Of a stretch of 64,000 nt of DNA, positions 38,320 through 53,892 are shown piece after piece (position 1 is the stretch's first letter; each line of letters starts with the position of its first letter). The notes beneath the pieces were generated by a model. The model was given only the letters and a program-made list of their open reading frames with translations, was not told the DNA's origin and did not search any database. Location of the stretch: the NCBI RefSeq assembly GCF_003568865.1, contig NZ_CP031115.1:1116001-1180000 (forward strand), read 5' to 3'. Both the position numbers and the translations under genes were made by a program. The DNA is from Rubrobacter indicoceani. GTDB taxonomy: Bacteria; Actinomycetota; Rubrobacteria; Rubrobacterales; Rubrobacteraceae.

Positions 38320-40391
38320 TGCTGAGGTCTCCCGCGTCCCGGCGGCTACGCCGCGGCAACCGGCCCCAGAAGCGTCAGACAACCCCGCAGCTCACGCGGG
38401 GGAACATGCACGTCCGGGTCGTGGTGCTGGCGGTCCTGACGGCGTTTGTGTTCGTGGTGCTGGGGTCGCGGCTCTGGTACATGCAGGTGCTCTCAAGCGA
38501 TTCGTTTAACGAAGCCTCCCAGCAGACCCAGACTCGGGAGGTGAAGATACCGTCCCAGCGCGGGGTGATCTACGACCGGAACCTCGATGTCCTTGCCTCG
38601 AACGTGCCGGGCCTGAACGTAACGGTCGTACCGGATGAGATCTCCCGCGACAAGGTGCGCGAGCTCGCAGAGCTGATCGGGGCGAACGTCGAGACGGTAA
38701 CGGAGAACTACGACGAGGCCCTGACCTACGATCCGTACTCCGCGATGCTCGTGAAGGAGAACGCCGACGAGAGCGACGTAACCTACGTCAGCGAGCGGGC
38801 GGAGGAGTTCCCCGGCCTCGTGATAAACGACGACTGGGTCAGGACTTACCCGGAGGGCAGCCTCGCGTCGCACGTTGTCGGCTATACGGGGGCGGTCACC
38901 CAGGAGGAACTGGAGCAGGACGACCGCTTCCGGGGCATCTTCAACGACTCGGTGGTCGGTAAGACCGGTATCGAGTACACCTACGAGGAGGCTCTCAGGG
39001 GTCGGGCCGGGAGCAAGGAATACACCGTTGACGCGCTCGGGCGGGTGGTCACGACGCGCAACGCCGACGGCACGCGGGCGGACGGCGCTCAGGAGGTCTC
39101 GCCCGAGATGATGCCGCCGAGCGACGTAACCGACCCGGTCGCCGGGCAGAGCCTCGTGCTGACGCTTGACATCGCTCTGCAGCGGGCCGCCGAAGAGGAA
39201 CTCGACGCCGCGCTTCTGCGGGCTCAACAGGAGGGATACACCGGCGAGGGCGGGGCGGTCGTCGCGATGGACCCGCGCAACGGTGAGATCCTTGCGATGG
39301 CGAGCCGTCCGGACTTCGACCCGCAACTCTTTGTCGGCGGGATAAACGGCGAGGAGGAGATCTCGACCTTCGAGTACCTGAACTCCGAGACCTCAAATTC
39401 CCCGTTCACGAACCGGGCGATAGTCGGGGCGTACCCGGGGGCTTCGGCGTTCAAGGTGTTCACGGGGCTTGCGGGGTTCCTCTACGGGGTCGTGGACGCG
39501 AACACGACGGTAACGGACAACGGGTCGTGCTGGGCGCCGGCCTCTGCGCCGGGGGCCTGCTGGTACTCGTGGGAGCAGACCTACAACGGTGAAGGGGCGA
39601 CGCACGGCACGCAGAATTTTGCTCAGGCCGTTGCGGACTCAAACGACAAGTACTTCTATCAGGTGGCGGACTGGATCTGGCAGCGGACCGACAACGTGAA
39701 CCTTCTCCCCGATTACTACGAGCAGTTCGGTTTCGGCACGACGACCGGGATAGACCTCCCCGGTGAGAGCGAGGGGCGCGTCCCCACAAAGGAGTGGTTC
39801 GACTGGTTCCGCGAAGAGGTCGGCAGCACCGATACCCGCCCGTTTGGAATAGGTGATTGGGTGAACATGTCCATCGGACAGGGTGACGTTCTGGTCAGCC
39901 CGATACAGATGGCTCAGGCTTACGCCTCGGTCCAGAACGGCGGGACGCTTGTTACGCCGCACGTGGCAAGAGAAGTCCGAAACCAGTTCGACAACAAGGT
40001 GCAGCGGGAGATCACCCCCGAACCGGAGGGTACCGTGGACTACGAGCCGGCGGCCCTTGCCGCCCTGATGGACGGGCTTCGCGGCGTTACGCAGGCGGGG
40101 GGTACGGCCGCTCCGGCCTTCGAGGACTCCGAGCTCACCGTCCTCGGCAAGAGCGGCACGGGCGAGCGCGGCGAGGATCAGGACCCGGTGGCGTGGTTTG
40201 CGGGCTGGGCCGAAGGTCACGATGACCAGCCGCTTGTCGTGGTCGTAACCCTTGAAGGGAGCGGCAGCAGCGAGGTCACGGCGGCTCCGGCGGTGCGCGG
40301 CGTCCTTGAGGCGTATTACGGGGTCGAATCCGGCGGCTCCCAGAGCGGCGCGGCGGCCGCCGCCGCCGACCCGACGGCCTCGCTTCAGTAG
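38319..40391 (+). CDS. mrdA: Penicillin-binding protein 2 (class B transpeptidase)
   Basis: Elongation-type monofunctional transpeptidase of 690 residues. One transmembrane helix (about 33-52) follows a basic tail. The dimerisation domain has the PSQRGVIYDRN segment; the catalytic domain has PGASAFKVF (Ser nucleophile), SND in VADSNDKYFYQVADW, and GKSGTGERG. The Asp after Ser-Asn is usual for the SxD form seen in PBP2. It is coupled to the sortase upstream and ends in a Ala-rich tail. It is followed 42 bp later by lgt. Confidence 0.94.
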   Translation: MLRSPASRRLRRGNRPQKRQTTPQLTRGNMHVRVVVLAVLTAFVFVVLGSRLWYMQVLSSDSFNEASQQTQTREVKIPSQRGVIYDRNLDVLASNVPGLNVTVVPDEISRDKVRELAELIGANVETVTENYDEALTYDPYSAMLVKENADESDVTYVSERAEEFPGLVINDDWVRTYPEGSLASHVVGYTGAVTQEELEQDDRFRGIFNDSVVGKTGIEYTYEEALRGRAGSKEYTVDALGRVVTTRNADGTRADGAQEVSPEMMPPSDVTDPVAGQSLVLTLDIALQRAAEEELDAALLRAQQEGYTGEGGAVVAMDPRNGEILAMASRPDFDPQLFVGGINGEEEISTFEYLNSETSNSPFTNRAIVGAYPGASAFKVFTGLAGFLYGVVDANTTVTDNGSCWAPASAPGACWYSWEQTYNGEGATHGTQNFAQAVADSNDKYFYQVADWIWQRTDNVNLLPDYYEQFGFGTTTGIDLPGESEGRVPTKEWFDWFREEVGSTDTRPFGIGDWVNMSIGQGDVLVSPIQMAQAYASVQNGGTLVTPHVAREVRNQFDNKVQREITPEPEGTVDYEPAALAALMDGLRGVTQAGGTAAPAFEDSELTVLGKSGTGERGEDQDPVAWFAGWAEGHDDQPLVVVVTLEGSGSSEVTAAPAVRGVLEAYYGVESGGSQSGAAAAAADPTASLQ

Positions 40392-40419
40392 CCGGTCTGT
40401 TCACCGGTAGACGATAGGG

Positions 40420-40425
40420 TATAGT
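40420..40425 (+). promoter_or_regulatory. Candidate -10 element (TATAGT), probably leaderless
   Basis: TATAGT ends 8 nt before the GTG at 40434, so lgt probably has its own leaderless promoter despite following PBP2 closely. Confidence 0.5.
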
Positions 40426-40433
40426 TACGCGCC

Positions 40434-41276
40434 GTGAACGAAGTGTTTATGACAGGAGTTACCGGGGTGCTGTTTTCCATCCCGAGCCCGCCTTCCCCGA
40501 TCATATTCGAGGCCGGGCCGCTTGCCCTGCGCTACTATGGGCTCTGTATCGCCCTCGGTATCGCGGTCGGGACGTGGCTGACCTCGCGCGAACTCGAACG
40601 GCGTAACTACGACGGCACGCTCGCCCTCGACTCGCTGCTCTTTCTTGTGGTTCCGGGTTTTATCGGGGCGCGCGTCTACCACGTCGCAACAAACTACGGG
40701 GACTACGCCGCAGACCCGATACCGGAGGTCTTTGCCGTCTGGAACGGCGGCCTCGCCATCTTCGGAGCGGTCTCTGGCGGCGCGATAGGCGCGGCGTTCT
40801 TCTGCTGGTACCGGGGCATAAGCCTTCTTGATTTTGCGGACTCCGCGGCTCCGGGTCTGATCCTCGCTCAAGCCTTCGGTCGCTGGGGCAACTACTTCAA
40901 CCAGGAACTCTTCGGACGCCCGACGGACCTTCCCTGGGCCATCCGGATAGCCCCGGAGAACCGCCCGGCGCAGTTCGCCGATGCGACCACCTTCCACCCG
41001 ACCTTTCTCTACGAGTCCATCCTGAACCTCCTTGTCTGCCTTGCTCTGCTGTACCTGGCCCGCCGCTTTGTCGACTGGCTCCGTCCGGGGGACGTATTTA
41101 TCATCTACATCGCCCTCTACGGCACCGTCCGCGTCTTTATGGAGACGCTCCGCATAGACCCGGCCTTCCTTATAGGCGGAGAGTTCCGGGGGAACCTCCT
41201 CGTTGCGGCTATCCTCGCGCTCGTTGCGGCGATGACGCTCCTTATGCGACACGCAAGACCGGCCAAGAGCACCTGA
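40434..41276 (+). CDS. lgt: Prolipoprotein diacylglyceryl transferase
   Basis: Transfers diacylglycerol to the lipobox Cys of lipoproteins in the membrane. The 280 residues contain about seven helices and the signature AFGRWGNYFNQELFGRPTDLPW; GGLAIFGAVSGGAIGA also fits, though the first His of the usual HGG is Asn here (WNGGLAIF). Lgt substrates in the window include the two ZnuA-like lipoproteins. The GTG at 40434 matches the family N-terminus. Confidence 0.93.
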   Translation: MNEVFMTGVTGVLFSIPSPPSPIIFEAGPLALRYYGLCIALGIAVGTWLTSRELERRNYDGTLALDSLLFLVVPGFIGARVYHVATNYGDYAADPIPEVFAVWNGGLAIFGAVSGGAIGAAFFCWYRGISLLDFADSAAPGLILAQAFGRWGNYFNQELFGRPTDLPWAIRIAPENRPAQFADATTFHPTFLYESILNLLVCLALLYLARRFVDWLRPGDVFIIYIALYGTVRVFMETLRIDPAFLIGGEFRGNLLVAAILALVAAMTLLMRHARPAKST

Positions 41277-41330
41277 CCCCGGCTTTCGTGCAGAAGACCC
41301 GACCCTCTGATATAAACTTTCCTGCGAATA

Positions 41331-41345
41331 GAAAAAGTTTTTCAG
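41331..41345 (-). promoter_or_regulatory. Candidate Zur/Fur operator upstream of the first fur gene
   Basis: Read on the minus strand this is CTGAAAAACTTTTTC; the GAAAAA-x-TTTTTC core is a perfect palindrome 43 bp upstream of the regulator start. It matches 12 of 15 bases of the site before znuA at 41800-41814 and resembles the GAAAAT/ATTTTC core of actinobacterial Zur boxes. Confidence 0.4.
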
Positions 41346-41387
41346 GGTCGTCGACGCAGGCCGGGGAGCTGACCGAGGGGTAGATAT

Positions 41388-41774
41388 TTGAGCGTATCGC
41401 GGGTAATCGGCCAGATGCGGGGGAGAGGTTTCAAGACCACCCCCCAGCGTCTGGCTGTGCTGGAGGCCATAGCGGCGGAGCAGCACCAAAGCTTCGAGGA
41501 GATCCACGCCCGCTGCCCGGAGGTCGGGATGGTAACGGTCTACCGGACGCTGGACCTATTTGCCGAGATCGGGGCGCTCCGGCGGCTGGACCTCGGAGAC
41601 GGACCGCGCTACGAGCTGGCCGAAGCCCACCACCATCACCTTCTCTGTCAGGACTGCGGCTCGATCGCCGAGTTCGAACGATGCCCGATAGACCCCGCTG
41701 CGCTCGCTGAGATGGACTTCGAGGTAACGTCGCACAGCCTGGAGATCTACGGTCGCTGTGGGGACTGTCGCTAG
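41388..41774 (+). CDS. Fur-family regulator, Zur-like (first copy)
   Basis: A 128-residue metal-sensing repressor. An N-terminal winged helix (residues 5-80, TPQRLAVLEAIAAEQHQSF, GMVTVYRTLDLF) precedes a dimer domain with HHHHLLCQDCG and a C-terminal CGDC, forming the structural zinc site with Cys pairs. Position directly before a ZnuA/B/C operon suggests zinc sensing. The TTG at 41388 gives the usual N-terminus. A second related gene lies at 54671. Confidence 0.88.
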   Translation: MSVSRVIGQMRGRGFKTTPQRLAVLEAIAAEQHQSFEEIHARCPEVGMVTVYRTLDLFAEIGALRRLDLGDGPRYELAEAHHHHLLCQDCGSIAEFERCPIDPAALAEMDFEVTSHSLEIYGRCGDCR

Positions 41775-41799
41775 GTACGGCGAAAATTTTTGACCCGCA

Positions 41800-41814
41800 C
41801 TGAAAAGATTTTGC
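41800..41814 (+). promoter_or_regulatory. Candidate Zur/Fur operator upstream of znuA
   Basis: CTGAAAAGATTTTGC, 50 bp upstream of the znuA GTG. The TGAAAA...ATTTT core differs by one central base from the actinobacterial Zur consensus TGAAAATGATTTTCA and matches the site at 41331-41345 at 12 of 15 bases. The flanks (cgaaaattttt, 41781-41791) are a second AT-rich near-palindrome. Confidence 0.4.
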
Positions 41815-41864
41815 ATCCGCATTAAGAGCCGGATCAGAAAAGACCGAGAGGAGAGAGGTTTTTC

Positions 41865-43046
41865 GTGAGAGGTTTCAGCAGAAGAAGCGGCAACGCTCCG
41901 AGAAGGAGGCGCGGGATTTTCGCCCTGCCGACGGTTTTCGTGGCGTCGGCGGCTATCGTTGCGTCGGGTTGCGGGGCTCAGGGTGGCTCCTCCGAGGGCG
42001 GTTCCGGCCAGGATGTTTCCGGTGAGGGGTCCGGCGGTGGACAGGGTGTAAGCGTGGTCGCCTCGACAACCCAGATCGCCGACTTCGTCAGAAACGTGGG
42101 CGGGGATGCGGTAGAGGAGCATCAGATCCTCCAGCCCAACACCGATCCTCACGACTACGAGCCGCGCCCCGAAGACGTGCGGCAGACCGCCGGGGCCGAC
42201 CTTGTTTTCATGAACGGGCAGGATCTCGACCCCTGGGTCGAGGATGTCGTGAGCGAGTCGGGCAGCGAAGCGCAGACCATAGACCTCAGCCAGAGCCTCT
42301 CCAGCCCCATCGAGGGCGCCGGAGAAGAACATTCCGAAGAAGGCGAAGCCCATGAAGATGAGGCGCACTCGGACGAGGCTCATGCGGATGCAGGCGACGA
42401 ACACGCGGGCGAGGCTAGCGCTGAAGGTGAGGCCCATTCGGACGAGGCGAACGCCGGGGAGGAAGACGTTCATGAGAGCGAGTACGACCCGCACTGGTGG
42501 CACGACCCGCGCAACGCGGAGTCTGCGGTGGAGGAGATTCGGGACTCGCTTATCGAGGTCGACCCGGAGAACGAGCAGGTCTACCGGGACAACGCCGAGG
42601 CTTACCTCGGAGAGCTCGGGACGCTCGACTCGGAGATAGAGTCCTGCCTGACCGAGGTTCCCGAGGACGAACGCAAGCTCGTCACCGACCACGAGGCGTT
42701 CGGGTACTTCACGGAGCGCTACGGCATAGAGCAGGTCGGGGCGGTCATTCCGTCTCAGAGCACGCAGGGTCAGGCTTCGGCGGGGGATACGGCGGAGCTT
42801 ATCGAAACCATAGAGTCTGAAGGCGTACTGGCCGTTTTCCCGGAGGAATCCATCAACGCCAGCCTCGCCGAGACCATAGCCGACGAGACGGGCGCAACCG
42901 CCGAGTACACGCTCTACGGTGATACGCTCGGTCCCGAAGGCTCCGACGGCGATACGTACCTGAAGATGATGGCCGCCAACGCCAACTCAATGACGCAGGG
43001 CTTTACCGGCGGCGAGTCAACCTGTGAAGTCCCCGCGGGGAACTAG
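41865..43046 (+). CDS. znuA: Zinc ABC transporter substrate-binding lipoprotein with His/Asp/Glu-rich loop
   Basis: Extracellular zinc-capture lipoprotein of 393 residues. A basic signal peptide ends in VASGC (Cys36), the lipid anchor. The zinc ligands of the family are visible: His96 in TDPHDYEP, His213 in DPHWWHDP (His210 adjacent), and a third in DHEAFGYF. Residues 150-205 are an insertion rich in His, Glu, Asp (repeats of EAHSDEA), typical of ZnuA proteins that take zinc from dilute sources. The GTG at 41865 follows gagaggag. It heads the operon with an ATPase and two permeases. Confidence 0.93.
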   Translation: MRGFSRRSGNAPRRRRGIFALPTVFVASAAIVASGCGAQGGSSEGGSGQDVSGEGSGGGQGVSVVASTTQIADFVRNVGGDAVEEHQILQPNTDPHDYEPRPEDVRQTAGADLVFMNGQDLDPWVEDVVSESGSEAQTIDLSQSLSSPIEGAGEEHSEEGEAHEDEAHSDEAHADAGDEHAGEASAEGEAHSDEANAGEEDVHESEYDPHWWHDPRNAESAVEEIRDSLIEVDPENEQVYRDNAEAYLGELGTLDSEIESCLTEVPEDERKLVTDHEAFGYFTERYGIEQVGAVIPSQSTQGQASAGDTAELIETIESEGVLAVFPEESINASLAETIADETGATAEYTLYGDTLGPEGSDGDTYLKMMAANANSMTQGFTGGESTCEVPAGN

Positions 43047-43085
43047 CGGGACACGGGTTCGAAACCGGACGGGGCAGGGAGGGTT

Positions 43086-43883
43086 TTGCAGCAGGCGGCA
43101 GCGGTCGAAGCGGGTTATCTGGCGCGGGTGAGCGGCGTCTCGGCGGGCTACGGTGGGGGGGTCGTTATCCGCGACCTCGACTTCGGCGTGGAGCCGGGGA
43201 CGCGGGTTGCGGTTCTCGGTCAGAACGGTGGCGGGAAGTCCACGCTCTTCAAGGTGCTTCTCGGCGACCTCGCCCCGGTTACCGGCACGGTCGACACGCG
43301 TGTCGCGTGCGGAACCGTTCCGCAGACCGACCGCTCCCGGCTCGACTACCCCGTCTCTGCGCTCGACGTGGCGTTGATGGGGAGCCTGAGTCGTCTGTCG
43401 TGGTGGAGAAGGCCGGGTAAAAGCGAGCGTGTCCGGGCGCTGGAAGCCCTGGAAACCGTCGGGCTGGGCGACCTTGCGAAGCGATCCTTCGGAGAGCTCT
43501 CCGGCGGGCAGCGGCAGCGGGTCCTGATCGCCCGCGCCCTCGTGCAGGATGCGAGGGTGCTGCTTCTCGACGAGCCGTTCAGCGGCCTCGACGCCCCGGC
43601 CTCCGACCTGCTGACAAACCTTGTAGACCGGCTGGCGGCCGAGGGGCGGGCCGTCGTGATAGCGACCCATGACCTCCATCAGGCCCGCTCCTGGGACCGG
43701 GTGCTCTGCCTGAACGGCAGGCAGATAGCTTTCGGGAAGCCGGACGAAGTCCTGAGCCGCCGGGTGATAGAGGAAACCTACGGAGCGCAGCTCACCGTCA
43801 TAGACGACGCGGATGGAGATGGCGACAGGGACACCCCCGGCGGCATCTCCGCGCTTCTTCCACCGCATCACCACCGAGCCTGA
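43086..43883 (+). CDS. znuC: Zinc ABC transporter ATP-binding protein
   Basis: ATPase of the first zinc importer, 265 residues. Walker A is LGQNGGGKSTLF, the signature is LSGGQRQRVLIAR, Walker B is VLLLDEPFSGLD, and the switch His is in VIATHDLHQ. A TTG at 43086 starts the usual N-terminus and lies 39 bp after znuA. The 3' end comes 19 bp before the first permease. Confidence 0.92.
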   Translation: MQQAAAVEAGYLARVSGVSAGYGGGVVIRDLDFGVEPGTRVAVLGQNGGGKSTLFKVLLGDLAPVTGTVDTRVACGTVPQTDRSRLDYPVSALDVALMGSLSRLSWWRRPGKSERVRALEALETVGLGDLAKRSFGELSGGQRQRVLIARALVQDARVLLLDEPFSGLDAPASDLLTNLVDRLAAEGRAVVIATHDLHQARSWDRVLCLNGRQIAFGKPDEVLSRRVIEETYGAQLTVIDDADGDGDRDTPGGISALLPPHHHRA

Positions 43884-43902
43884 GCCGAGTCGAGACAGGT
43901 TG

Positions 43903-44757
43903 ATGGGCGAGCTTGCACAGTTTCTTTTCGAGCCGTGGTCCAGCGGGATCATGCAGCGCGCCCTTATCGAGGTGGTCCTGCTCGGCCTCGTAGGTGGGGC
44001 GCTCGGGTGCTGGATCGTCTTCTACGAGCTTTCCTACAGTGCAGAGTCGCTGGCCCACGCGCTATTTCCGGGGCTGGTGCTCGCCGCGCTTCTCGGCTTT
44101 CCGCTGATACTCGGGGCCGGAGCCGGGGTTGCCGTCGCCGCGCTGGCCATCCTTGTTTTCGGCCGCGCGCCGCATATCGGGCGTGATACATCGGTGGCGG
44201 TGGTTATCAGCGCGCTCTTCGGCCTCGGGGTGGTTCTGGCGCTCTCGCCGGATTCCCCGCCGGGGATACAGGAGCTTCTCTTCGGGGACGTTCTGGGTGT
44301 GAGACGGGCCGATCTCATCCTTGCCGCCCTTCTTGCCGCCGTCGTGCTCTGCTCGCTGGCCCTGTTTCACCGTCAGCTGCTCGCGGTCGGCTTCGACCGG
44401 GCGACGGCTCGTTCCATCGGGGCGAGGCCGCGCCTGACGGATCTTGCCCTGATCTGCCTCCTCGCCGTCGCGACCGTCGTTGCGGTGCAGGGGATGGGCA
44501 ACCTTCTCGTCGTGGCCATTCTTGTCGGGCCTGCGGCGACCGCCCGGCTTTTCTGCCGCCGCATGGGACGGATGATGCTTCTGGCGACGGCGCTCTCGGT
44601 GGCCTGCGGCCTTGCGGGCCTCTATCTCTCGTTCTACGCCGGGCTCGCCGCCGGAGCCTCTATAGCCGGGGTGGTCGTCCTGCTCTACATCGTTGCGTTC
44701 GCCGCGAGCGAGCTGGCCGGAAGCCGTCCCGGACGCGCAGCGGGGAACAGGCCGTGA
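43903..44757 (+). CDS. znuB: Metal ABC transporter permease, first of two
   Basis: A 284-residue integral membrane protein of the ABC-3 family, the channel of the zinc importer. About eight helices, with FYELSYSAESLAHALFPG (conserved H-A-x-x-P-G motif), and the late VQGMGNLLVVAILVGPAATARLF. The ATG at 43903 is used; the frame is open upstream inside the ATPase gene. A second permease gene follows with overlapping start, so the channel may be a heterodimer. Confidence 0.9.
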   Translation: MGELAQFLFEPWSSGIMQRALIEVVLLGLVGGALGCWIVFYELSYSAESLAHALFPGLVLAALLGFPLILGAGAGVAVAALAILVFGRAPHIGRDTSVAVVISALFGLGVVLALSPDSPPGIQELLFGDVLGVRRADLILAALLAAVVLCSLALFHRQLLAVGFDRATARSIGARPRLTDLALICLLAVATVVAVQGMGNLLVVAILVGPAATARLFCRRMGRMMLLATALSVACGLAGLYLSFYAGLAAGASIAGVVVLLYIVAFAASELAGSRPGRAAGNRP

Positions 44758-45593
44758 TGGAGAACCTTGTCGAGTACTTCCAGCTGCCGTTTGTGCAGCG
44801 CGGCTTTCTGGAGGTTCTTTTCCTCTCCGTCGGGGCGGGGATTCTCGGGACGTGGGTTGTACTGCGCGGCCTTGCTTTTTTTGCCCACGCGGTCGGGATG
44901 TCCACCTTTCCCGGTCTGGTGCTGGCCGATGGGCTTGGTTTCGCCGCGCCGCTCGGAGCGCTCGCCTCCGCCGGGATCTTTGCGACCTCGCTGGAGCGTC
45001 TCTCCCGTCGCAGAAAGTCCGGCTATGACAGCCTGACGGCGCTTCTTCTTGTCGGGATGCTCGCGCTCGGGGCGATCCTCGCGAGCGATGTCTTCGCTTC
45101 CGGGGCGAACGTGGACACGCTGCTCTTCGGGAGCCTGCTCGCTATCTCCGACGCCGACGTAGCCTTTGCCGGGGCGGTCAGCCTGATCGTAGTCGCGGCG
45201 AGCATCCTCTTCGGCAGAACGTGGCTCGCCACGGGCTTCGACGCCTCCGCCGTGCGCTCGCTCGGGGTCCGCTCCGCCATCCCGGACGGTATCCTGCTTG
45301 TTCTGATCGCCCTCTTCACAACGGCCACGCTTTCGGCGGTCGGATCGCTTCTGGCGACGACGCTCTTTGTCGTACCCGCCGCGACCGTGCGCCTTTTTAC
45401 CGCCCGGCTGGTCCCCTGGCAGCTGCTGACCATCTCTCTCGTGGCCGCCGAAGGCACCGCGGGTCTGCTTTTATCTCTGGCCACCAACGCCCCGCCCGGA
45501 GCGACCATCGCCATGCTGGCGGGCGGGGTCTTTGCTCTTGCGTTTGTGGTTACCGAGCTTACGACCCGCCTGAGAACCGCCCCGCAGCGGTAA
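44754..45593 (+). CDS. Metal ABC transporter permease, second of two
   Basis: A 279-residue ABC-3 permease, paralogue of the previous gene (LAFFAHAVGMSTFPGLVLADGLGF; SAVGSLLATTLFVVPAATVRLF). Two different permease genes in one zinc operon is less common than one. The GTG at 44754, or the ATG at 44757, overlaps the preceding stop codon, so translation is coupled. It ends in a short basic tail. Confidence 0.88.
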   Translation: MMENLVEYFQLPFVQRGFLEVLFLSVGAGILGTWVVLRGLAFFAHAVGMSTFPGLVLADGLGFAAPLGALASAGIFATSLERLSRRRKSGYDSLTALLLVGMLALGAILASDVFASGANVDTLLFGSLLAISDADVAFAGAVSLIVVAASILFGRTWLATGFDASAVRSLGVRSAIPDGILLVLIALFTTATLSAVGSLLATTLFVVPAATVRLFTARLVPWQLLTISLVAAEGTAGLLLSLATNAPPGATIAMLAGGVFALAFVVTELTTRLRTAPQR

Positions 45594-45599
45594 ACTGCC

Positions 45600-45618
45600 C
45601 TCTCCGCCGGGCGGAGAG
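45600..45618. terminator. Hairpin between convergent zinc-island genes
   Basis: CTCTCCGC/GCGGAGAG stem with a 3-nt loop between the second permease gene (plus) and the His-rich gene (minus). No clear T run, so a factor-independent role is uncertain. Confidence 0.45.
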
Positions 45619-45655
45619 AGCGGTTCGTTTGTCCGACTTCAGGTTCGGACCGTCC

Positions 45656-45994
45656 CTATACGACCTCCACCGGCCCGTGATCGTCGCAGTGTCCCTCATG
45701 CGGGTGGTGCAGGTGTCCTTCTACAAGGTAGTCGGTGTGGTCGCCGTGCGGGACGGCCTCGTGACCGCAGCCGGGGCCGTGCTCGTGGCCCTCGTCGTGT
45801 TCCGCATCGTGGCCGTTGTGGCCTTCGGGGTTCTCGCCGCCGACCTCGAGCGCGTGCTCCTCGACGGTGCCGTCTTCTTTCTGGTGGTGCAGGTGCCCGT
45901 CGTGGAGATAATCCACGTGGCCGTCGTGCTTTACGGCGGTATGCCCGCAACCCTCACCGTGCGTGTGCTCGTGCCCCTGATGTATGCCCGTCAT
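45656..45994 (-). CDS. His-rich metal-binding protein with two repeats
   Basis: A 112-residue soluble protein with 26 His and 3 Cys. Two similar units are seen: residues 15-37 (GCGHTAVKHDGH then VDYLHDGHLHH) and 75-97 (GCGHEAVPHGDH then TDYLVEGHLHH), so it arose by internal duplication. No signal peptide is present, so it works in the cytoplasm. Such proteins can store or buffer zinc, nickel or cobalt; here the zinc context favours zinc. It lies 33 bp after the ArsR gene and is probably co-transcribed with it. Confidence 0.75.
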   Translation of the reverse strand: MTGIHQGHEHTHGEGCGHTAVKHDGHVDYLHDGHLHHQKEDGTVEEHALEVGGENPEGHNGHDAEHDEGHEHGPGCGHEAVPHGDHTDYLVEGHLHHPHEGHCDDHGPVEVV

Positions 45995-46027
45995 AATCTT
46001 TTCCTTTCATTTGTTTTCCGGCCCTCT

Positions 46028-46366
46028 CTACTCGTCTGCGTGGGCGAGGATCGAGAGTATTACGTCGTAGACGTGCCGGTCGGCGAGCGAGTAGTAGACG
46101 TGCTTGCCTTCCCGCCGACCGCTCACAAGACCCTCGGACCGCAGGACCTTCAGCCGCTGTGAGATGGTCGACATTCCTTCACCGCTCTCCGCCGCCAACT
46201 CCGTTACACACGTCTCGCCTTCCGAGAGCCGCACCATCAACCGGAGCCGGGCCTCGTCCCCGGCCGCGTGCAGCATCCTCGCCGCCCGTCCGTAGGACTC
46301 CGCCCGAACCCCCGCGCCGCCCGACCCGTCGTTCCCATGCTCCTCGACCCGACACGTAGGCTCCAT
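46028..46366 (-). CDS. ArsR/SmtB-family metal-sensing repressor
   Basis: A 112-residue winged-helix repressor (DEARLRLMVRLSEGETCV, recognition helix GMSTISQRLKVLRSEGLV). The last helix DRHVYDVILSILAHADE has Asp, His, His and Glu at relative positions 0, 2, 13 and 16, exactly the alpha-5 zinc site of SmtB/CzrA. It should leave DNA when zinc binds, so it would derepress its target at high zinc. It sits upstream of the His-rich gene and a 10-bp palindrome lies 33 bp before it. Confidence 0.9.
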   Translation of the reverse strand: MEPTCRVEEHGNDGSGGAGVRAESYGRAARMLHAAGDEARLRLMVRLSEGETCVTELAAESGEGMSTISQRLKVLRSEGLVSGRREGKHVYYSLADRHVYDVILSILAHADE

Positions 46367-46398
46367 CTCGGTCCCTCGACCCCCGCGCTTTCAAGATA

Positions 46399-46432
46399 GT
46401 TCAACGTTTCATGAAATGATAGAACGTTGAAC
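46399..46432. promoter_or_regulatory. Palindrome upstream of the ArsR gene (candidate operator)
   Basis: GTTCAACGTT (46399-46408) and AACGTTGAAC (46423-46432) are perfect 10-bp arms separated by 14 bp that include TTTCATGAAA. The GTTCA/TGAAC elements resemble ArsR/SmtB sites. The site lies 33 bp upstream of the ArsR start, so self-regulation is likely. Confidence 0.55.
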
Positions 46433-46483
46433 TGAGGCCGTCAAGAGCGGTGCGGATTAGAAAAGTATTTTCACCCGGTGGTT

Positions 46484-47323
46484 TCAGCGGGCCTCGGCGG
46501 AGAGGGTTTTAAGGAGAAGGGTTACAAGAAAGGCCGAGGTGCAGAGAAGAACTATAGCGGCACCGGAGGGGAGATCGAGATAGTAGGAAGCGTAGAGGCC
46601 GCCGGTTGCGGCAAAGACGGAGAAGGCGACGGCGAGGGCCATCATGTGGTGGAGTTTATCTGTAAGGAGGGAGGCGGTTGCGGCGGGGGTTATAAGAAGG
46701 GCGCTTATAAGGATCACGCCGACGGCCTGGATACCGATAACGACGGTGAGGGCAAGAAGAACGAGGAGGATGTAGCGCAGTCGGTCGGGGTCGAGGCCGA
46801 TGGCGCTTGCGTGCGTCGGGTCGAAAGAGGTGAGCTCGAGTTCTTTGTGGAGGACAAAGACGGTCAGAAGGATGCCGGCGGACAGAAGGGCGATGGTGAG
46901 GAGGGAGGCGGGGGTAACGCCCAGGATGTTGCCGAAAAGGATGTGGGAGAAGTCCCGGAAGGAGTTCACGGAGCTCATCAGCACGACGCCGAGGGCGAAC
47001 ATCCCGGTGTAGGCGACGCCGATGGCGGTGTCCTCGCGCAGGGTGCGGTTTCGGGAGAGCCACCCGACGCCGAAGGCCGTGAGGATGCCGGCCGCGACCG
47101 CGCCGGCAAGGAGGTTCAGGCCGAGCAGGTACGAGGCGGCGAGGCCGGGAAGAACGGTGTGCGAGAGCGCGTCCCCGATAAAAGCCATCCCGCGCAGGAC
47201 TACGTAGACCCCGAGAACGGCGCAGGTTGCGCCGATCAGAAGCGCGGCAAGCAGCCCGGTCTGCATAAACGAGTAGCCGAGCGGCTCGGTCAGCCGGGAC
47301 AGGAGGCCGGAGGCGAAGCTCAC
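46484..47323 (-). CDS. Metal ABC transporter permease (second system)
   Basis: A 279-residue ABC-3 family permease, last gene of the seven-gene zinc operon. Eight or nine helices, with GMAFIGDALSHTVLPGLAASY (conserved H-T-x-x-P-G) and GIQAVGVILISALLITPAATASLL. Its start overlaps the ATPase stop by 4 bp. It differs from the permeases of the first system, and only one permease gene is present here. Confidence 0.9.
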   Translation of the reverse strand: MSFASGLLSRLTEPLGYSFMQTGLLAALLIGATCAVLGVYVVLRGMAFIGDALSHTVLPGLAASYLLGLNLLAGAVAAGILTAFGVGWLSRNRTLREDTAIGVAYTGMFALGVVLMSSVNSFRDFSHILFGNILGVTPASLLTIALLSAGILLTVFVLHKELELTSFDPTHASAIGLDPDRLRYILLVLLALTVVIGIQAVGVILISALLITPAATASLLTDKLHHMMALAVAFSVFAATGGLYASYYLDLPSGAAIVLLCTSAFLVTLLLKTLSAEAR

Positions 47324-48060
47324 CGGGCTCCGGCGTCGCTCGGGGAGGTCCGGCCTTTGCAGAGGCAGACGACGGCATCGTACTCGTCGTAGAGGTTGTC
47401 GAGGTCGTGGGTGGCGACGATAAGGGTCTTTCCGGCTTTCCGCAGCTCCTCGGTCACAAGCTGGATGCGGTCTCTGGTTTCGGCGTCCACGGCGGTCAGG
47501 GGCTCGTCGAGAAGGAGCAGGTCGGATTCCTGAGCAAGGGCGCGGGCGAGGAGGGCGCGCTGCTGCTGACCGCCGGAGAGCGCGCCGATGCGCCGTCCGG
47601 CGAGGTCTTCGACGCCGAGCCGGGCGAGTACGCTGGCTACGATCCCCTTATCCTTGCGGGACGGTCGTCGGAGCCATCCGAGGTGGACGAACCTGCCGCC
47701 GAGAACGAAACGCCCGACGCTCACGGGGAAGTTCAGGTCTATATCGCCGCGCTGGGGAAGGTAGGCGACCCGGTGATGACACGCCCCGACCGGGTTGCCG
47801 TAGATGGAGATTTCGCCCGAGGTCGGGAAGAGCAGGCCCGCAACGACCTTGAGCAGCGTCGATTTGCCGCTGCCGTTGTCCCCGACGAGCGCGATCTGCG
47901 ATCCGTTCGGGGCCGTGAGGTCGGCGTTTGTCAGGGCCGCGGCGCTGGAGCCGGGGTAGCGGGCCGAAACGGCGCGAACCGCCAGGGCGGGCGCGCCGGG
48001 TACGGGGTCGGCGTGGCGGGAGCGACCGTAGGGGAGCTTCGGGAGGACGACGGTGTTCAT
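47320..48060 (-). CDS. Metal ABC transporter ATP-binding protein (second system)
   Basis: A 246-residue ATPase with Walker A VGDNGSGKSTLLK, signature LSGGQQQRALLAR, Walker B LLLLDEPLTAVD and the switch His in VATHDLDNL. It lies 8 bp after the ZnuA-like gene and overlaps the permease. It powers the second zinc/manganese-type importer of the island. Confidence 0.92.
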   Translation of the reverse strand: MNTVVLPKLPYGRSRHADPVPGAPALAVRAVSARYPGSSAAALTNADLTAPNGSQIALVGDNGSGKSTLLKVVAGLLFPTSGEISIYGNPVGACHHRVAYLPQRGDIDLNFPVSVGRFVLGGRFVHLGWLRRPSRKDKGIVASVLARLGVEDLAGRRIGALSGGQQQRALLARALAQESDLLLLDEPLTAVDAETRDRIQLVTEELRKAGKTLIVATHDLDNLYDEYDAVVCLCKGRTSPSDAGAR

Positions 48061-48068
48061 CTCCGGTT

Positions 48069-49067
48069 TCAGCCGTCGAGAGCGTCGGTTATGGTGGCGA
48101 CGTTGTAGCGCATCATCCCGACGTAGGTCTCGCCCTCGGTGCCTTTTTCGCCGAGGGCGTCGGTGTAGAGGGGCGGGGCGAGCTCCACCCCGGCCTCGCA
48201 GGCCACCTGCTCCATCAGGGCCGGGTTCGAGATGTTCTCGGTGAAGATAGCGGGCACGCCGGAGAGCTCTATCTCCCCGACAAGCCCGGCGGTCTCCCCG
48301 GCGGACGGGTCTGCGGCTTCGGTGGTGAAGGAGGCGAGGCCCGCACCGACGACTTCGTAGTCGTAGGCCCGGGAGAAGTAGCCGAAGGTGTCGTGCGAGG
48401 TAACGAGCCTGCGGCTTTCGGGCGGAACGCCTTCGCTTTCCTCGGAGATCCAGGCATCGAGTTCTTCAAGCTCCGCAAGGTATTCTTCGGCGTTTCGTCT
48501 GTAGGCTGCGGCGTTGTCGGGGTCGGACTCGACGAGCGCGTCCCGCACGGCCTCGACCATCACCCCGGCGTTCGACACATCCTGCCAGACGTGAGGATCG
48601 TATTCGTCGGGCGCGTTCTCCCCGTTATCATCGGAAGGGCCTTCTTCGGGGCCGGGCGGGGCTTCCTCTTCGGATAGGACGAGGGGTTCTATATTCTCGG
48701 TAACGACGACGCGCTCTGCCCCGGCCCCGGAGGACTTGTAGAGGCTGTAGAGCCAGACCTCGAACTCAAGGCCGTTCTCAAAGACAAGGTCCGCCTCGGA
48801 GAGCGTTGCGCTGTTCTGCGGGGTCGGCTCGAAGGTGTGGGCGTCGCCGTCCGGCCCGACAAGCGTCTGCAGTTCGATGTTCTCGGCACCGACGTTCCGG
48901 ACGTAGTCGCCGAGGATGCTGTAGGTCGCAACGACGTTCAGTTTGCCGTCGAGGCCGCCCCGGTCCCCCGACCCTTCCCGACCGACCTGCTCCGCAGAGC
49001 AGCCGACCATACCGAGCGAGACGGTGACCGCTGCTGCTGCTGCTGCGAGCATCCTCTTTACATGCAT
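48069..49067 (-). CDS. Zinc/manganese ABC transporter substrate-binding lipoprotein (second system)
   Basis: A 332-residue ZnuA-like lipoprotein. The ATG at 49067 gives a clean signal peptide ending GMVGC (lipobox Cys at about 22). Metal ligands: His in GDAHTFEPTPQ, His in YDPHVWQDV, and the pair in TSHDTFGYF. Unlike the first ZnuA it has no long His-rich loop, only an acidic one (EEAPPGPEEGPSDDN), so the two may differ in affinity or metal. It follows the 62-residue CSTC gene by 43 bp. Confidence 0.9.
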   Translation of the reverse strand: MHVKRMLAAAAAAVTVSLGMVGCSAEQVGREGSGDRGGLDGKLNVVATYSILGDYVRNVGAENIELQTLVGPDGDAHTFEPTPQNSATLSEADLVFENGLEFEVWLYSLYKSSGAGAERVVVTENIEPLVLSEEEAPPGPEEGPSDDNGENAPDEYDPHVWQDVSNAGVMVEAVRDALVESDPDNAAAYRRNAEEYLAELEELDAWISEESEGVPPESRRLVTSHDTFGYFSRAYDYEVVGAGLASFTTEAADPSAGETAGLVGEIELSGVPAIFTENISNPALMEQVACEAGVELAPPLYTDALGEKGTEGETYVGMMRYNVATITDALDG

Positions 49068-49110
49068 TCTCTCTCCTGTCCGTAAGGCCGGTCTGCTGAG
49101 CGGCTCTTCT

Positions 49111-49299
49111 CTAGCGGGGGCGGCTCGCTTTGCAGGTGCTGCATCCTCTGCCACCGGACTCGTACTGCACCAGCAGCCACTCGGCGTCGGTGAGAAACGC
49201 GCCGGAGTCGTACTTCTTGAGGGCCGCTCTTACTCGGGTTTCGATCTCTCGGGCTCTGGCCTGCGGGGTAGGCTTGCTTTTCAGAAGAGTTCCTTTCAT
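49111..49299 (-). CDS. Small CSTC protein in the zinc operon, 62 residues
   Basis: A short basic protein, MKGTLLKSKPTPQARAREIE, then a helix, GAFLTDAEWLLVQYESG, and a C-terminal GRGCSTCKASRPR. The CxxC at the end is the only clear feature and could bind zinc or thiols. It overlaps the WD40 gene stop by 4 bp (ATGA) and sits between the COG0523/WD40 genes and znuA, so it is co-translated with a zinc-limitation operon. It was not recognised as any known family. Confidence 0.6.
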   Translation of the reverse strand: MKGTLLKSKPTPQARAREIETRVRAALKKYDSGAFLTDAEWLLVQYESGGRGCSTCKASRPR

Positions 49300-50375
49300 A
49301 GCTTGTAGGAGACCACCGTCCCCGTATCGAAGCCCGCCGTCAGGATCCGGTCGTTCATGGCCCAGGCGAGCTGTGAGACGGCGGCGTCTCCGTGTGCAAG
49401 GGCCGTCGGCGCGGGCTGAAGAAGCGGGTTCCAGACGGAAACCTCGCCGTCGAGCGTGCCGGAGGCGAGAAGGCTGCCTTTGCGCTGGAAGGCGAGCGCG
49501 CCGACGTTGGCCTCGCCCGCGCCCGAGAGCGAGACCGGCGTCGTCCCGGCCGGGCCTCTGCCGGAGCAGTCCCAGACGGTAACGGTCGGACCGCCGCCCG
49601 TGGCCAGCAGGCGGCTCGCCGGGTCCCAGGCAAGCTCCCTGACCTTTGTCGGGTAGCCGTGCATCTGAAGGTCTCTGCCGCTTTCGTGGATCCAGAAATG
49701 AACCGTTGAGTCCTGGTCCCCGGTGGCGATAAACCGACCGTTCGGGCTCCACCTGATAACAAGCGTAGACCCCTGCCACTCAAACCGGCGGCGCGGCGCG
49801 CCGGAGTCGACCCCGAAAAGGGAGATGCCCCCGTAGGACGCACTCGCAAGCTCGGCTTGATCCCCTGTTGCGCCCGGCCTCCACGCGACGTCCGAGACCG
49901 TGCTGCCGTGCGGCTCAGACTCCCAGAGCAGCTCCGAGTCGCCGACGCGCCACAGCCGGACAACCGGCCCGGCGGCGGTGGCGATAAACCGACCGTCCGG
50001 GGAGAACGCGACCTTCTCCACCCACGCCGCACCACCGGCGAGCGCGGCGCTCTCTTCGCCGTCCCAGACCTTCCAGACCCGAACATGACCATCCTGACCG
50101 CAGCTTGCGACCAGCCGACCGTCCCGGCTCCACGACACGGACAAAGCTCCGAAGTCATGGCCGGGGAGGGCGTGACGCGTTCGGCCGGTCTTCACCTCCA
50201 GAAGCAGCACCGGACCCTCGACCGAGGCCGCTGCGAACAGACGACCGTCCGGCGAGGGGGAGAGGTCGACGACGTGTCCCTCCGCGTCCGCCCGCCAGAG
50301 TACGTCGAGCGCTTTCGGCCTCGGGCGGCCCGCGCCGCGCCGCGCGCCGTTTTGCGTCCGCCTCATGTAAGGCAC
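49296..50375 (-). CDS. WD40 repeat protein in the zinc operon
   Basis: A 359-residue beta-propeller with about seven WD40 repeats, for example VVDLSPSPDGRLFAAASVEG, LSVSWSRDGRLVASCGQDGHVRVW, VEKVAFSPDGRFIATAAG and VIRWSPNGRFIATGDQDSTVHFW. There is no signal peptide. It overlaps the COG0523 GTPase stop by 13 bp and the small CSTC gene by 4 bp. Its role is unknown; the context suggests a scaffold or metallation partner of the GTPase, as an inference. Confidence 0.85.
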   Translation of the reverse strand: MPYMRRTQNGARRGAGRPRPKALDVLWRADAEGHVVDLSPSPDGRLFAAASVEGPVLLLEVKTGRTRHALPGHDFGALSVSWSRDGRLVASCGQDGHVRVWKVWDGEESAALAGGAAWVEKVAFSPDGRFIATAAGPVVRLWRVGDSELLWESEPHGSTVSDVAWRPGATGDQAELASASYGGISLFGVDSGAPRRRFEWQGSTLVIRWSPNGRFIATGDQDSTVHFWIHESGRDLQMHGYPTKVRELAWDPASRLLATGGGPTVTVWDCSGRGPAGTTPVSLSGAGEANVGALAFQRKGSLLASGTLDGEVSVWNPLLQPAPTALAHGDAAVSQLAWAMNDRILTAGFDTGTVVSYKL

Positions 50376-51724
50376 GCCCTGAAGCCGGAGTTGAGCTCCT
50401 CCCGGTCGAGGTTGCGTCCGATAAAGATAAGCGAGTTCCCCCGGGGCGCGTCATCCCAGGGTTTCTCGGGTTTCCCGTCGAAAAGCATATGAACGCCCTG
50501 AAAGACAAACCGGTCGTCCTCTCCGGCGATGCTCAGGACGCCTTTCATGCGGAAGATGTCCTGACCCTTCTCCTGAAGAAGCTTGCCGAGCCAGGCGTTG
50601 AAGAGCGTCGGGTCAAGGTCGCCCGAGGTCGTGATGCCGACGGAGGTGATGCTTTCGTCGTGTTCGTGATCCGGCGCGTACTCCCGCGCCGTCTCGGGGC
50701 TGAGAACCCCCGCCTCGCCCCGAAGCTCGGCCTCGAACTCCTCCGGCAGATGCTCCGCGAAAACAACGTAGTACCCGGCTTCTTCTATCCGAAGGTCGAA
50801 AAGCTCCTCCGAACCGGAGAGCTGCAGCGTGTTCAGGGTGCCGTCGGCGGTAACGCTTTCGCCTGCTCCAACGTTGCGCTCCTCACCCGAATACGCCAGA
50901 ACGGCCCGCTCGGCGGCGGCTTCCAGGGTTCTGTCCGTGAGGTCTTCCACGCGGGAGACGACGAGGCCCATCGCCGGGTCCGGGCCTTTGCGCATGACCC
51001 ACCCGTAGCTGTCCGCATCGAGGCGGTAAGTCCCCGACCACTCGAACGGGTACTCGGGCTCCATGAAGTTCGGGTCCGTCTCCATCGCCCGGTCGAGGTC
51101 GAAGCCCCCGACGCCGAGGATGCTGTCCATCGCCACCCGGGCGTCCTGCGTGCGGTGGATCTCCGCCGCCGCGTTCATTGACTTTATCCGCGCCTCGAGC
51201 CGGTTCAGGTCTTCTTCGGAGACGAGGTCTATCTTGTTCAGAAGGATGACGTCCGCAAAGGCTATCTGCTCCTTTACCTCGTCGGAGTCGTCTATGTGCT
51301 GCCAGACGTGCCGGGCGTCGACAAGCGTAACCACCGCGTCGAGGGCGAGCTTCGACCGCATCTCGTCGTCCATGAAAAACGTCTGCGCGACGGGGCCGGG
51401 GTCGGCCATGCCGGTTGTTTCGATCATTATGTAGTCGAACCTGTCCCGGCGCTTCATCAGGTTGCCGAGGATGCGGATCAGGTCGCCCCGAACGGTGCAG
51501 CAGATGCAGCCGTTGTTCATCTCGAAGACCTCTTCGTCGGCCCCGATGACGAGGTCCTGATCCACCCCGACCTCGCCGAACTCGTTTTCTATTACCGCGA
51601 TCCTCTTTCCGTGGTTCTCGGTGAGGATTCTGTTTAAAAGCGTTGTCTTGCCCGCCCCGAGAAATCCGGTCAACACCGTTACCGGAACTTTAGTTGCCGT
51701 CGCGCTTGCCTTAACTTCCGTCAT
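50363..51724 (-). CDS. COG0523/CobW-family zinc-chaperone-like GTPase (second copy)
   Basis: A 453-residue G3E GTPase. Walker A is GFLGAGKTT (20-28), the metal site CxCC is Cys73, Cys75 and Cys76 in NNGCICCTVRGDL, with ETTGMADP and LLNKIDLV (NKxD). A His/Asp stretch (DHEHDE, about residue 350) is in the C-terminal CobW domain. Such proteins deliver zinc to client enzymes under shortage. It lies 14 bp after the ZagA-like gene in the same operon. The ATG at 51724 is preceded by a ribosome site. Confidence 0.9.
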   Translation of the reverse strand: MTEVKASATATKVPVTVLTGFLGAGKTTLLNRILTENHGKRIAVIENEFGEVGVDQDLVIGADEEVFEMNNGCICCTVRGDLIRILGNLMKRRDRFDYIMIETTGMADPGPVAQTFFMDDEMRSKLALDAVVTLVDARHVWQHIDDSDEVKEQIAFADVILLNKIDLVSEEDLNRLEARIKSMNAAAEIHRTQDARVAMDSILGVGGFDLDRAMETDPNFMEPEYPFEWSGTYRLDADSYGWVMRKGPDPAMGLVVSRVEDLTDRTLEAAAERAVLAYSGEERNVGAGESVTADGTLNTLQLSGSEELFDLRIEEAGYYVVFAEHLPEEFEAELRGEAGVLSPETAREYAPDHEHDESITSVGITTSGDLDPTLFNAWLGKLLQEKGQDIFRMKGVLSIAGEDDRFVFQGVHMLFDGKPEKPWDDAPRGNSLIFIGRNLDREELNSGFRACLT

Positions 51725-51738
51725 GCGTAGCTCCTTTT

Positions 51739-52986
51739 CTAGTGGTGGTCGTGTCTGTTCTGTCCGACGCCCGGCCCCTGCAACTCGAACTGCCAGACCG
51801 GGAACGGGTCTTCCAGGTACGGCCAGACCGTCTCCCCGAAGGCAAGCTCCTCGTCGGTGAGCAGAGCGTCTTCGAGGTCGCCGACCATCGCTTCGCGGTC
51901 CATATCCCGCCCGATAAAGACCAGCTCCTGCCTGCGGTCGCCTACCTCTTCGTCCCAGACGGAGAGGATCTCCTCCACGTCTTCTCCGTGTTCCGGCCAC
52001 TCGCTTTTCGGGGCGGAGGCCCACCAGAAGCCGGACGGTTCGAAACGCAGGATTCCACCGGCCTGAGACCACAGAAACGCCACGTCCCGCCTCGAGGCAA
52101 GCCAGAAGAAACCTTTGGAGCGCAGCACACCCGTCCACTCGGCCTTTGTAAGCTCCCAGAGCCGCTCGGGATGAAACGGCCTGCGCGACCGGAAGACAAA
52201 GCTCGATATCCCGTACTCTTCCGTCTCCGGCGTATGCTCACCGCGAAGCTCCGCCAGCCAGCCCGGCGCCCCCGCAGCCTCCTCGAAATCGAACAGCCCC
52301 GTTCCGAGCACCTCATCCGTCGGCACGACCCCGAACTCCGAGCGAATGATCCTCGCTTTCGGGTTGAGACTCCGAACGGCCCTTTCAAGAACGGAAAGTT
52401 CCGAGTCGCTTATCAGGTCGCACTTGTTCAGAACGATGACGTTCGCGAACTCGACCTGCTCGACAAGCAGGTCCGTAACCGTCCGGTCGTCCTCCTCCGA
52501 GAGCGCCAGCCCGCGCGCCGAAAGGTCGTCGGCCGCCTCGTATTCCCGCAGAAACCCCAGCGAATCCACGACGGTCACGAGCGTATCGAGCGTGGCGAGG
52601 TCCGAGAGCGACCTCCCCTCTTCGTCCGGGAAGGTGAAGGTCTCGGCTACCGGGAGCGGCTCCGAGATGCCCGTCGACTCGACGAGCAGGTAGTCGAAGC
52701 GACCATCCCTCGCCAGCCGCGCCACCTCCACGAGAAGATCCTCCCGCAGCGTGCAGCAGATGCAGCCGTTCGTCATCTCCACCAGCTTCTCATCCACCCG
52801 GTTTAAAGACGACCCGCTCGCCACGAGGTCCGCGTCTATGTTCACCTCGCTCATGTCGTTGACGATCACCGCAACCCGCAGACCCTCGCGGTTCGCCAGC
52901 ATGTGGTTGAGGAGCGTTGTCTTGCCCGCACCCAGAAACCCCGACAGGACCGTTACCGGAAGCCGTCCCTCCACCACACCCGACAT
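51739..52986 (-). CDS. COG0523 GTPase, ZagA/YciC-like
   Basis: A 415-residue G3E GTPase. Walker [11 protein letters not shown], the conserved [16 protein letters not shown], the CxCC site at Cys75, Cys77, Cys78 in [23 protein letters not shown] and NKCD are all seen. The [10 protein letters not shown] sequence matches the Bacillus YciC/ZagA type, a Zur-regulated chaperone that supplies zinc to folate synthesis. The C-terminus ends in HDHH. It is the first gene of the seven-gene operon and a palindrome lies 59 bp upstream. The gene name is not given because identity is by motif. Confidence 0.9.
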
Positions 52987-53045
52987 AGCAACCCCCTTCG
53001 TTCACAACTCGTCCTCGTGAATCACTCGACCGCTTACAGATAAAA

Positions 53046-53061
53046 CGATAATGTAATATCA
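53046..53061. promoter_or_regulatory. Candidate Zur box A in the zinc operon/sufE promoter
   Basis: CGATAATGTAATATCA: an imperfect palindrome (GATA...TATC) in a rare AT-rich patch. It is 59 bp upstream of the ZagA-like start and 64 bp upstream of sufE. It matches box B before the zinc-free ribosomal genes at 14 of 16 bases. Confidence 0.6.
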
Positions 53062-53112
53062 ATAAAGTTCAAGGGGTAGAGCAGGACACGTTTTGGGAGG
53101 TAGAGACTCTGG

Positions 53113-53118
53113 TAGACT
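53113..53118 (+). promoter_or_regulatory. Candidate -10 element (TAGACT), probably leaderless
   Basis: TAGACT ends 7 nt before the ATG at 53126, with no ribosome site in between. It supports that start for sufE. Confidence 0.45.
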
Positions 53119-53125
53119 CAGGTTC

Positions 53126-53569
53126 ATGAGTACGCCGCAGAGACTAGAAGAAATAATAGAGGAGTTCAGCGGGTTACCGAAGGAGTTCAAGCTGCCGATG
53201 CTGCTTGAATACTCGAGAAAGGTTCCGCCGCTTCCGGAGTATCTGGCGAACAACCCGGATCTTCTGGAGCAGGTACACGAGTGTCAGACGCCGTTTTTTC
53301 TGGCCGAAGAGATAGACGAATCGGGGCGGGTTCAGATCCACTTCGACGCGCCGCAGGAGGCCCCGACGACGCGCAGTTTCGCCGGGGTCGTCTACGAGGG
53401 CCTGAACGGGCTTCGGGCGGAGGAGATCCTTGCCGTTCCGGACGATTTCTACACCCGCATGGGCCTGTCTGAGGTTGTATCGCCTTTAAGGCAGCGGGGG
53501 ATTTCGGCCATACTCTGGCGGCTCAAGAAGCGCGTCCGGGCCGACCTCGAAGCCCGGCAGGCGAGCTAG
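53126..53569 (+). CDS. sufE: SufE-family sulfur acceptor
   Basis: Accepts persulfide sulfur from SufS and passes it to Fe-S cluster assembly. The 147 residues show the family start RLEEIIEEFSGLPKEFKLPMLLEYS, the active Cys in VHECQTPFFL, and VVYEGLNGLRAEEIL. The ATG at 53126 gives the usual N-terminus. It is divergent from the zinc operon and shares box A, and convergent with rpsN (ends 1 bp apart). Whether it is zinc-regulated is unknown. Confidence 0.92.
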   Translation: MSTPQRLEEIIEEFSGLPKEFKLPMLLEYSRKVPPLPEYLANNPDLLEQVHECQTPFFLAEEIDESGRVQIHFDAPQEAPTTRSFAGVVYEGLNGLRAEEILAVPDDFYTRMGLSEVVSPLRQRGISAILWRLKKRVRADLEARQAS

Positions 53570-53570
53570 G

Positions 53571-53876
53571 CTACCAGCTCGCCTTTTTGAGGCCGGGGAT
53601 TTTGCCTTCGTGGGCGAGGTTTCTCAAGTTGATCCTCGAAAGGCCGAACTTCCTGTAGTAACCCCGGCTTCTGCCGTCGAGTTGATCTCGGTTTCGCAGC
53701 CGGGTGGGGGACGAGTCCCTCGGTAGCCGCGCCAGGGCGTTGGCCGCCTCCAGCCGCTCCTCCTGTGTGGAGCCGGGCGATCTCACGACGGCCCTCAACT
53801 CCGCCCGCCGTTTTGCGTAGCGGGCCACAGTTTCCCTGCGCTGCTCGTTTTTCGCTATCTTCGCCTTGCGAGCCAT
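53571..53876 (-). CDS. rpsN: Ribosomal protein S14, zinc-free form
   Basis: A 101-residue S14 of the long type without the CxxC-x-CxxC zinc knuckle ([20 protein letters not shown] ... [16 protein letters not shown]). This C-minus form is expected to replace the zinc-binding S14 when zinc is short. It is last in an L33-L28-S14 operon behind box B. Such Zur-controlled replacement sets are known from Streptomyces and mycobacteria. Confidence 0.95.
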
Positions 53877-53892
53877 GCCGTCAGCCTTTCTG

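Follow-up and report, generated by a model that had tools for sequence, protein, structure and literature searches.

A candidate zinc-excess cassette of Rubrobacter indicoceani: an SmtB-type repressor gene followed by a gene for a histidine-rich two-repeat protein

Layout of the locus

What is the role of a small histidine-rich protein whose gene lies behind that of an ArsR-family repressor, among genes for zinc uptake? The question is raised by a window of 64,000 nucleotides (the whole stretch of DNA analysed) in the 3.08 Mb genome of Rubrobacter indicoceani. The two genes are probably an autoregulated cassette of the SmtB type, in which surplus zinc would free the repressor and a metal buffer would be made.

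On the (-) strand of the window lie, in this order, the genes for ZigA (634.5 bits against the NCBIfam cut-off of 600), a second CobW-type protein, a WD40-repeat-like protein (49296-50375), the binding protein ZnuA2 (48069..49154; Pfam ZnuA, 265 bits), a ZnuC2-like ATPase (47320..48060; named from its position and from matches in relatives) and the ZnuB2 permease (46484..47323; Pfam ABC-3, 263.9 bits), the last gene of this zinc uptake set. After about 117 bp follow arsR (46028..46366), encoding an ArsR/SmtB-family repressor of 112 amino acids (identified by open reading frame and family models), and the gene of the histidine-rich two-repeat protein (45656..45994), also of 112 amino acids, which is likely to be a metal buffer with a predicted beta fold; these two genes have the same direction and no gene was called between them. 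The names of the WD40 and second CobW genes are presumed from sequence. Convergent with the histidine-rich gene, and reaching up to 45593 on the (+) strand, are the genes for a Fur-family regulator (41388..41774; Pfam FUR, 88.3 bits), ZnuA1 (41865-43046), ZnuC1 and two ZnuB1 permeases. The regulator ahead of znuA1 is probably Zur; none of its matches in NCBIfam reaches the cut-off, and none singles out Zur. The neighbours of the cassette are mostly uptake genes, which counts against a response to surplus zinc. No Rfam match was found within 40000-54000 and no terminator was detected within 45550-46560.

ZnuA1 carries a long stretch rich in histidine, glutamate and aspartate. A WD40-repeat-like gene recurs (window; loci L128, L129 and L130; loci L009, L082 and L103), flanked either by CobW and ZnuA2 or by CobW and the histidine-rich gene, in the latter case with Zur following.

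Recurrence of the two-gene cassette

Relatives of the histidine-rich protein were collected as 110 loci, consisting of 30 of the 45 places found in a phylum scan and the best 80 of 247 relatives, a sample skewed towards relatives of the window protein; 103 loci remained after seven near-duplicates (L031, L032, L033, L062, L075, L098 and L110) were set aside by hand. An arsR gene is located directly upstream on the same strand in 36 of the 103, and by record title these paired loci represent no fewer than eight phyla, many of the records being metagenome bins. The remaining 67 loci have no ArsR directly upstream, which counts against an SmtB-type switch. So does the patchy distribution within the class, where the histidine-rich gene was found in five of 39 genomes. 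ArsR homologues with at least 60% identity occur in six of the same 39 genomes, and five of them adjoin the histidine-rich gene. The contig of the sixth (G206) breaks off 100 bp past the ArsR match, and its last bases open a reading frame (MTENIHTGHEHVH) that is the beginning of the histidine-rich protein; therefore arsR is followed by the histidine-rich gene or its truncated start in all six, as a fixed pairing would predict. The ArsR-His pair is a recurring, conserved two-gene cassette.

A search of the phylum gave a match to the histidine-rich protein in 37 of 296 genomes, and relatives were found in 7 of 72,556 plasmid records, where four are annotated as "hypothetical protein" and the rest are unnamed. 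The tree of the histidine-rich proteins labelled by type of regulator has 53 of 93 forks open, and its ArsR label requires 23 changes against 28.8 in shuffles; being poorly resolved, this tree gives no history of the pairing. At locus L044 the ArsR-His pair is near folE2, and at locus L089 the histidine-rich gene is directly behind a CDF efflux gene.

The ArsR-family sensor

The product of arsR belongs to the ArsR/SmtB family, its winged-helix ArsR domain scoring above the curated cut-offs (Pfam HTH_5, 40.7 bits against 22; NCBIfam HTH_metalloreg, 82.3 against 55); residues 29-111 align to SmtB (1r1t) with an E value of 8.5e-13. The initial annotation of the window had described an ArsR helix with Asp, His, His and Glu at the SmtB spacing of 0/2/13/16, and this description is confirmed: D96, H98, H109 and E112, as read from the sequence, form the motif DxHx10Hx2E in the last helix, which places the protein among the alpha-5 SmtB-type sensors. 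Overlooked at that time were C5, H10, C53 and E56, whose positions correspond roughly to those of the alpha3N ligands in SmtB.

Among the ArsR proteins encoded directly upstream of the histidine-rich gene, as collected with a search model that started from the window's ArsR, was extended on these loci and could favour alpha-5 forms, DxHx10Hx2E is kept in 36 of 36, a C-x2-D/E in helix 3 in 24 and an N-terminal C...H in 19. The same model also picked up five ArsR proteins of the host genome without the alpha-5 set; these belong to seven examined there (of 12 other matches), the other two having D-H-H-H. A 37th paired ArsR, that of G206, was found later and likewise has D-H-H-H. In a tree of 50 ArsR proteins, the paired ones need four label changes against a shuffle mean of 12.3; 31 of the 36 fall in one group together with two unpaired proteins from the same loci (support 92), and five in another.

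Promoter and operator

Upstream of arsR is a sigma-70-type promoter (TTGACG-17-TATCAT; 46416..46444 on the (-) strand), the one site found where 0.1 would be expected in shuffles. A TTGAC -35 box is present in five of the six aligned genomes of the window's family, that of G206 being weaker. Directly after the -10 box lies the palindromic core TTCA-N8-TGAA (46400..46415 on the (-) strand), which has this position in all six genomes. The core was also found upstream of 14 of the 36 ArsR-His cassettes (shuffle mean 0.10, maximum 2 in 200 rounds), and upstream of three of the 56 histidine-rich genes that adjoin no ArsR or Fur gene (shuffle mean 0.14, maximum 2), and at none of the 11 with a Fur-family gene adjoining. 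The exact core is absent from the other 22 paired loci, which counts against the proposed ArsR switch; some of these have a site resembling ACAnTT-N12-AAnTGT, which is 12-2-12-like, and in the others none was found.

The flanks of the core are symmetric (AWCAn and nTGWT) and were outside the search seed. They are consistent with the 12-2-12 repeats described for operators of the SmtB family (PMC8790569). In the window the outer flanks match this pattern in part only, and a predicted operator in the 12-2-12 register would span approximately 46395-46420.

The initial annotation had instead pointed to a 10-bp palindrome 33 bp upstream of arsR. A significant inverted repeat does exist (AGTTCAACGTT / AACGTTGAACT; 46398..46433 on the (-) strand, with arms at 46423-46433 and 46398-46408): its perfect arms of 11 bp, separated by a gap of 14 and ending 31 bp before the arsR ATG, were reached by none of 1000 dinucleotide-shuffled versions of the 117-bp intergenic sequence. 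However, its left arm is missing in five aligned relatives and is private to the window (one of six genomes), so TTCA-N8-TGAA replaces the palindrome as the likely ArsR operator.

A scan of the host genome with WTTTCATGAAAYGWTGAA, allowing up to three mismatches, gave four matches against two for the reversed-pattern control. Two of the four are the operator read on either strand, and the others are a site with two mismatches, whose surroundings were inspected, and a site with three. On this basis the scan offered no convincing second target of a wider ArsR regulon.

The genes, the alpha-5 site, the promoter and the operator core are seen in the sequence, together with their conservation. The initial annotation's alpha-5 sensor in front of the histidine-rich protein is supported at the level of sequence, with its own promoter and a putative operator, in a pairing that is conserved in many lineages.

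The histidine-rich protein

The histidine-rich gene is present as a single copy in the host genome, and its product contains 26 histidines (23%) and three cysteines in 112 amino acids. That it follows ArsR and is internally duplicated had been noticed earlier, and the duplication is well supported: the two repeats align with a score of 128, the best of 500 shuffles reaching 76. Fourteen histidines and three cysteines are invariant across 58 of these proteins. The window protein has no match in Pfam or NCBIfam, four other members of its family have none in Pfam at E values up to 1, and a PDB sequence search with it gave none at E values up to 1. Literature searches by word in open-access papers, which covered mostly titles and the openings of abstracts, found none naming the protein or the ArsR-His pair.

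AlphaFold2 models were built for the window protein from 58 sequences (mean pLDDT 86.9, pTM 0.79) and for a relative from 26 other sequences (mean pLDDT 88.0, pTM 0.80). The two alignments share no rows, and both models have the same strand order in both repeats, which suggests a beta-repeat fold; since models of repeat proteins can be over-confident and contain no metal, the fold stays a prediction. Foldseek searches of the PDB with both models gave no match at E 0.001 or better (best 2.9 and 4.5), and a second structural comparison gave no Z score of 2 or more among 43 chains.

The protein is not a bacterial metallothionein in the usual sense of a cysteine-rich chain that matches a family model. 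At the actinobacterial loci L025 and L029, where the gene follows that of an alpha-5 ArsR, the histidine-rich repeat ends in a cysteine-rich, metallothionein-like tail, the final 60 residues containing 10 and 19 cysteines respectively. These tails favour a role in holding metal; neither protein has a match in Pfam. The histidine-rich protein probably soaks up surplus zinc as a metallothionein does.

Proposed regulation and its alternatives

At ordinary zinc concentrations, an ArsR dimer bound to TTCA-N8-TGAA, immediately behind the -10 box, would hold down transcription of arsR and the histidine-rich gene. On a rise in cytosolic zinc, and perhaps also in cadmium, metal would fill the site formed by D96, H98, H109 and E112 between the alpha-5 helices, and the metal-filled repressor would leave the operator. 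The folded two-repeat His/Cys protein would then be made and would keep the surplus metal, working like a metallothionein. At the same time Zur would close down both sets of Znu uptake genes, and metal would be exported by way of separate ArsR-CDF pairs. Boxes that resemble the published Zur site of S. coelicolor (TGAAAATGATTTTCA; PMC2823685) precede zur (AGAAAAAGTTTTTCA; 41330..41344) and znuA1 (TGAAAAGATTTTGCA; 41801..41815), both on the (+) strand, each at a shuffle p of about 0.02. The identity of the metal, the sign of control, the release and the buffering are those expected from knowledge of the family: SmtB-type sensors release at zinc excess and Zur represses uptake at plentiful zinc (PMC7174638, PMC6103462), so the two regulators would form opposing arms, as the initial annotation proposed.

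The histidine-rich protein might instead serve the scarcity programme, storing zinc or chaperoning it to CobW/ZigA clients, with ArsR only limiting or timing its synthesis. This is unlikely, and it is kept as a rival by the 11 loci (of the 67 without ArsR) in which a Fur-family gene is within 350 bp of the histidine-rich gene. Four of the 11 have a 7-1-7 box just upstream at a shuffle p of 0.01 or less, but three of these boxes are nearly one sequence, the template was picked after inspection, and the other seven loci have no box at p 0.01. The boxes upstream of the histidine-rich gene at L009, L082, L103 and L108, where Zur adjoins and ArsR is absent, are TGCGACTCATTCGCA, TGCGACCCATTCGCA and TGAGAGTCGTTCTCA. 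Several genomes also have the histidine-rich gene next to znu, CobW and WD40 genes, and folE2, the gene near the pair at L044, is one of Zur regulons (PMC6103462). Against a scarcity role, the upstream ArsR proteins have the alpha-5 set of zinc-excess sensors and arsR has its own promoter. Furthermore, Zur can also activate at high zinc, as described for a metallothionein of Synechococcus (PMC9337993). At the Fur-adjacent loci the protein may therefore belong to the scarcity programme or be activated by Zur.

Dual control, with Zur also acting at the arsR promoter, is very unlikely. It would use a Zur-box-like sequence upstream of the -35 box (TGAAAATACTTTTCT; 46459..46473 on the (-) strand), which has a shuffle p of about 0.02. 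Zur and SmtB oppose each other on smtB-zur in M. smegmatis (PMC7174638), but no such box was seen by eye upstream of arsR in four relatives. A different stretch, TTGA...TGATATT..ATTATCGTTT, precedes ZigA (approximately 53020-53080 on the (-) strand) in the window and at the same-genus locus L126; it does not resemble the zur and znuA1 boxes. It is rather improbable that the cassette senses and binds another metal such as cadmium, nickel or cobalt. Nickel and cobalt sensors of the family, such as NmtR, likewise use alpha-5 sites, and histidine-rich proteins bind nickel well. AzuR has been tied to cadmium stress, but D-H-H-E is the set of AzuR and of the zinc sensor SmtB (PMC8790569), and the neighbours in the window are genes of zinc uptake and ZigA.

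A zinc-released SmtB-type cassette is thus still the preferred reading of the window. On a wider view, put forward tentatively as possible though doubtful, the histidine-rich protein would found a widespread family of zinc buffers with a folded beta-repeat structure, equivalent to metallothionein but based on histidine. Different lineages would have wired it to opposite sensors: some to an alpha-5 ArsR released by zinc, others to Zur, which would repress it as a starvation reserve or activate it at high zinc.

Comparison with known systems

The initial annotation had regarded a buffer without an efflux pump as unusual. This view does not hold, because repressor-buffer pairs have been published, namely SmtB-SmtA (PMC8790569) and BxmR-BmtA (PMC8790569, PMC6103462), and four CDF genes are present in the host genome, two of them next to ArsR genes with the D-H-H-H set. 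AzuR-NmtA is a further published parallel (PMC8790569). As in these three systems, an alpha-5 repressor with DxHx10Hx2E would govern a small metal-holding protein from an operator over the promoter, here as judged from sequence (PMC8790569). The resemblance to AzuR-NmtA extends to location, azuR being inside a znu operon and the window's arsR beside a znu set (PMC8790569). In contrast to those metallothioneins, the protein described here is not cysteine-rich but a histidine-rich two-repeat protein with three cysteines and a predicted beta fold; and whereas smtA and smtB are divergent and nmtA is far from azuR (PMC8790569), arsR and the histidine-rich gene are co-directional neighbours.

The cassette shares with the CzrA-CzrB type an alpha-5 ArsR of the zinc-excess kind, but it is not a module of CDF pump and adjacent ArsR gene: none of the four CDF matches is in it, and the host's two ArsR-CDF pairs have D-H-H-H rather than D-H-H-E. 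Mycobacterial smtB-zur likewise links sensors of excess and scarcity, and locus L063 has ArsR, the histidine-rich gene and Zur in a row, whereas in the window zur is apart from the cassette, in front of znuA1 on the opposite strand. As with Synechococcus Zur-BmtA, a zinc buffer would be raised at high zinc beside control of uptake; there Zur activates, whereas here the ArsR repressor is the likely switch (PMC9337993). What is new is the buffer protein; the design itself is of the SmtB-SmtA kind.

Significance

Sensor, operator and product are encoded within 0.8 kb. To our knowledge, bacterial zinc buffers beyond the metallothioneins of cyanobacteria and pseudomonads are poorly known, and such a buffer would be supplied by this small His/Cys repeat protein with its predicted fold, which accompanies an alpha-5 zinc sensor at loci from at least eight phyla. 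The loci that have the same protein beside Zur provide a route to ask how a buffer moves between the zinc-excess and zinc-scarcity programmes.
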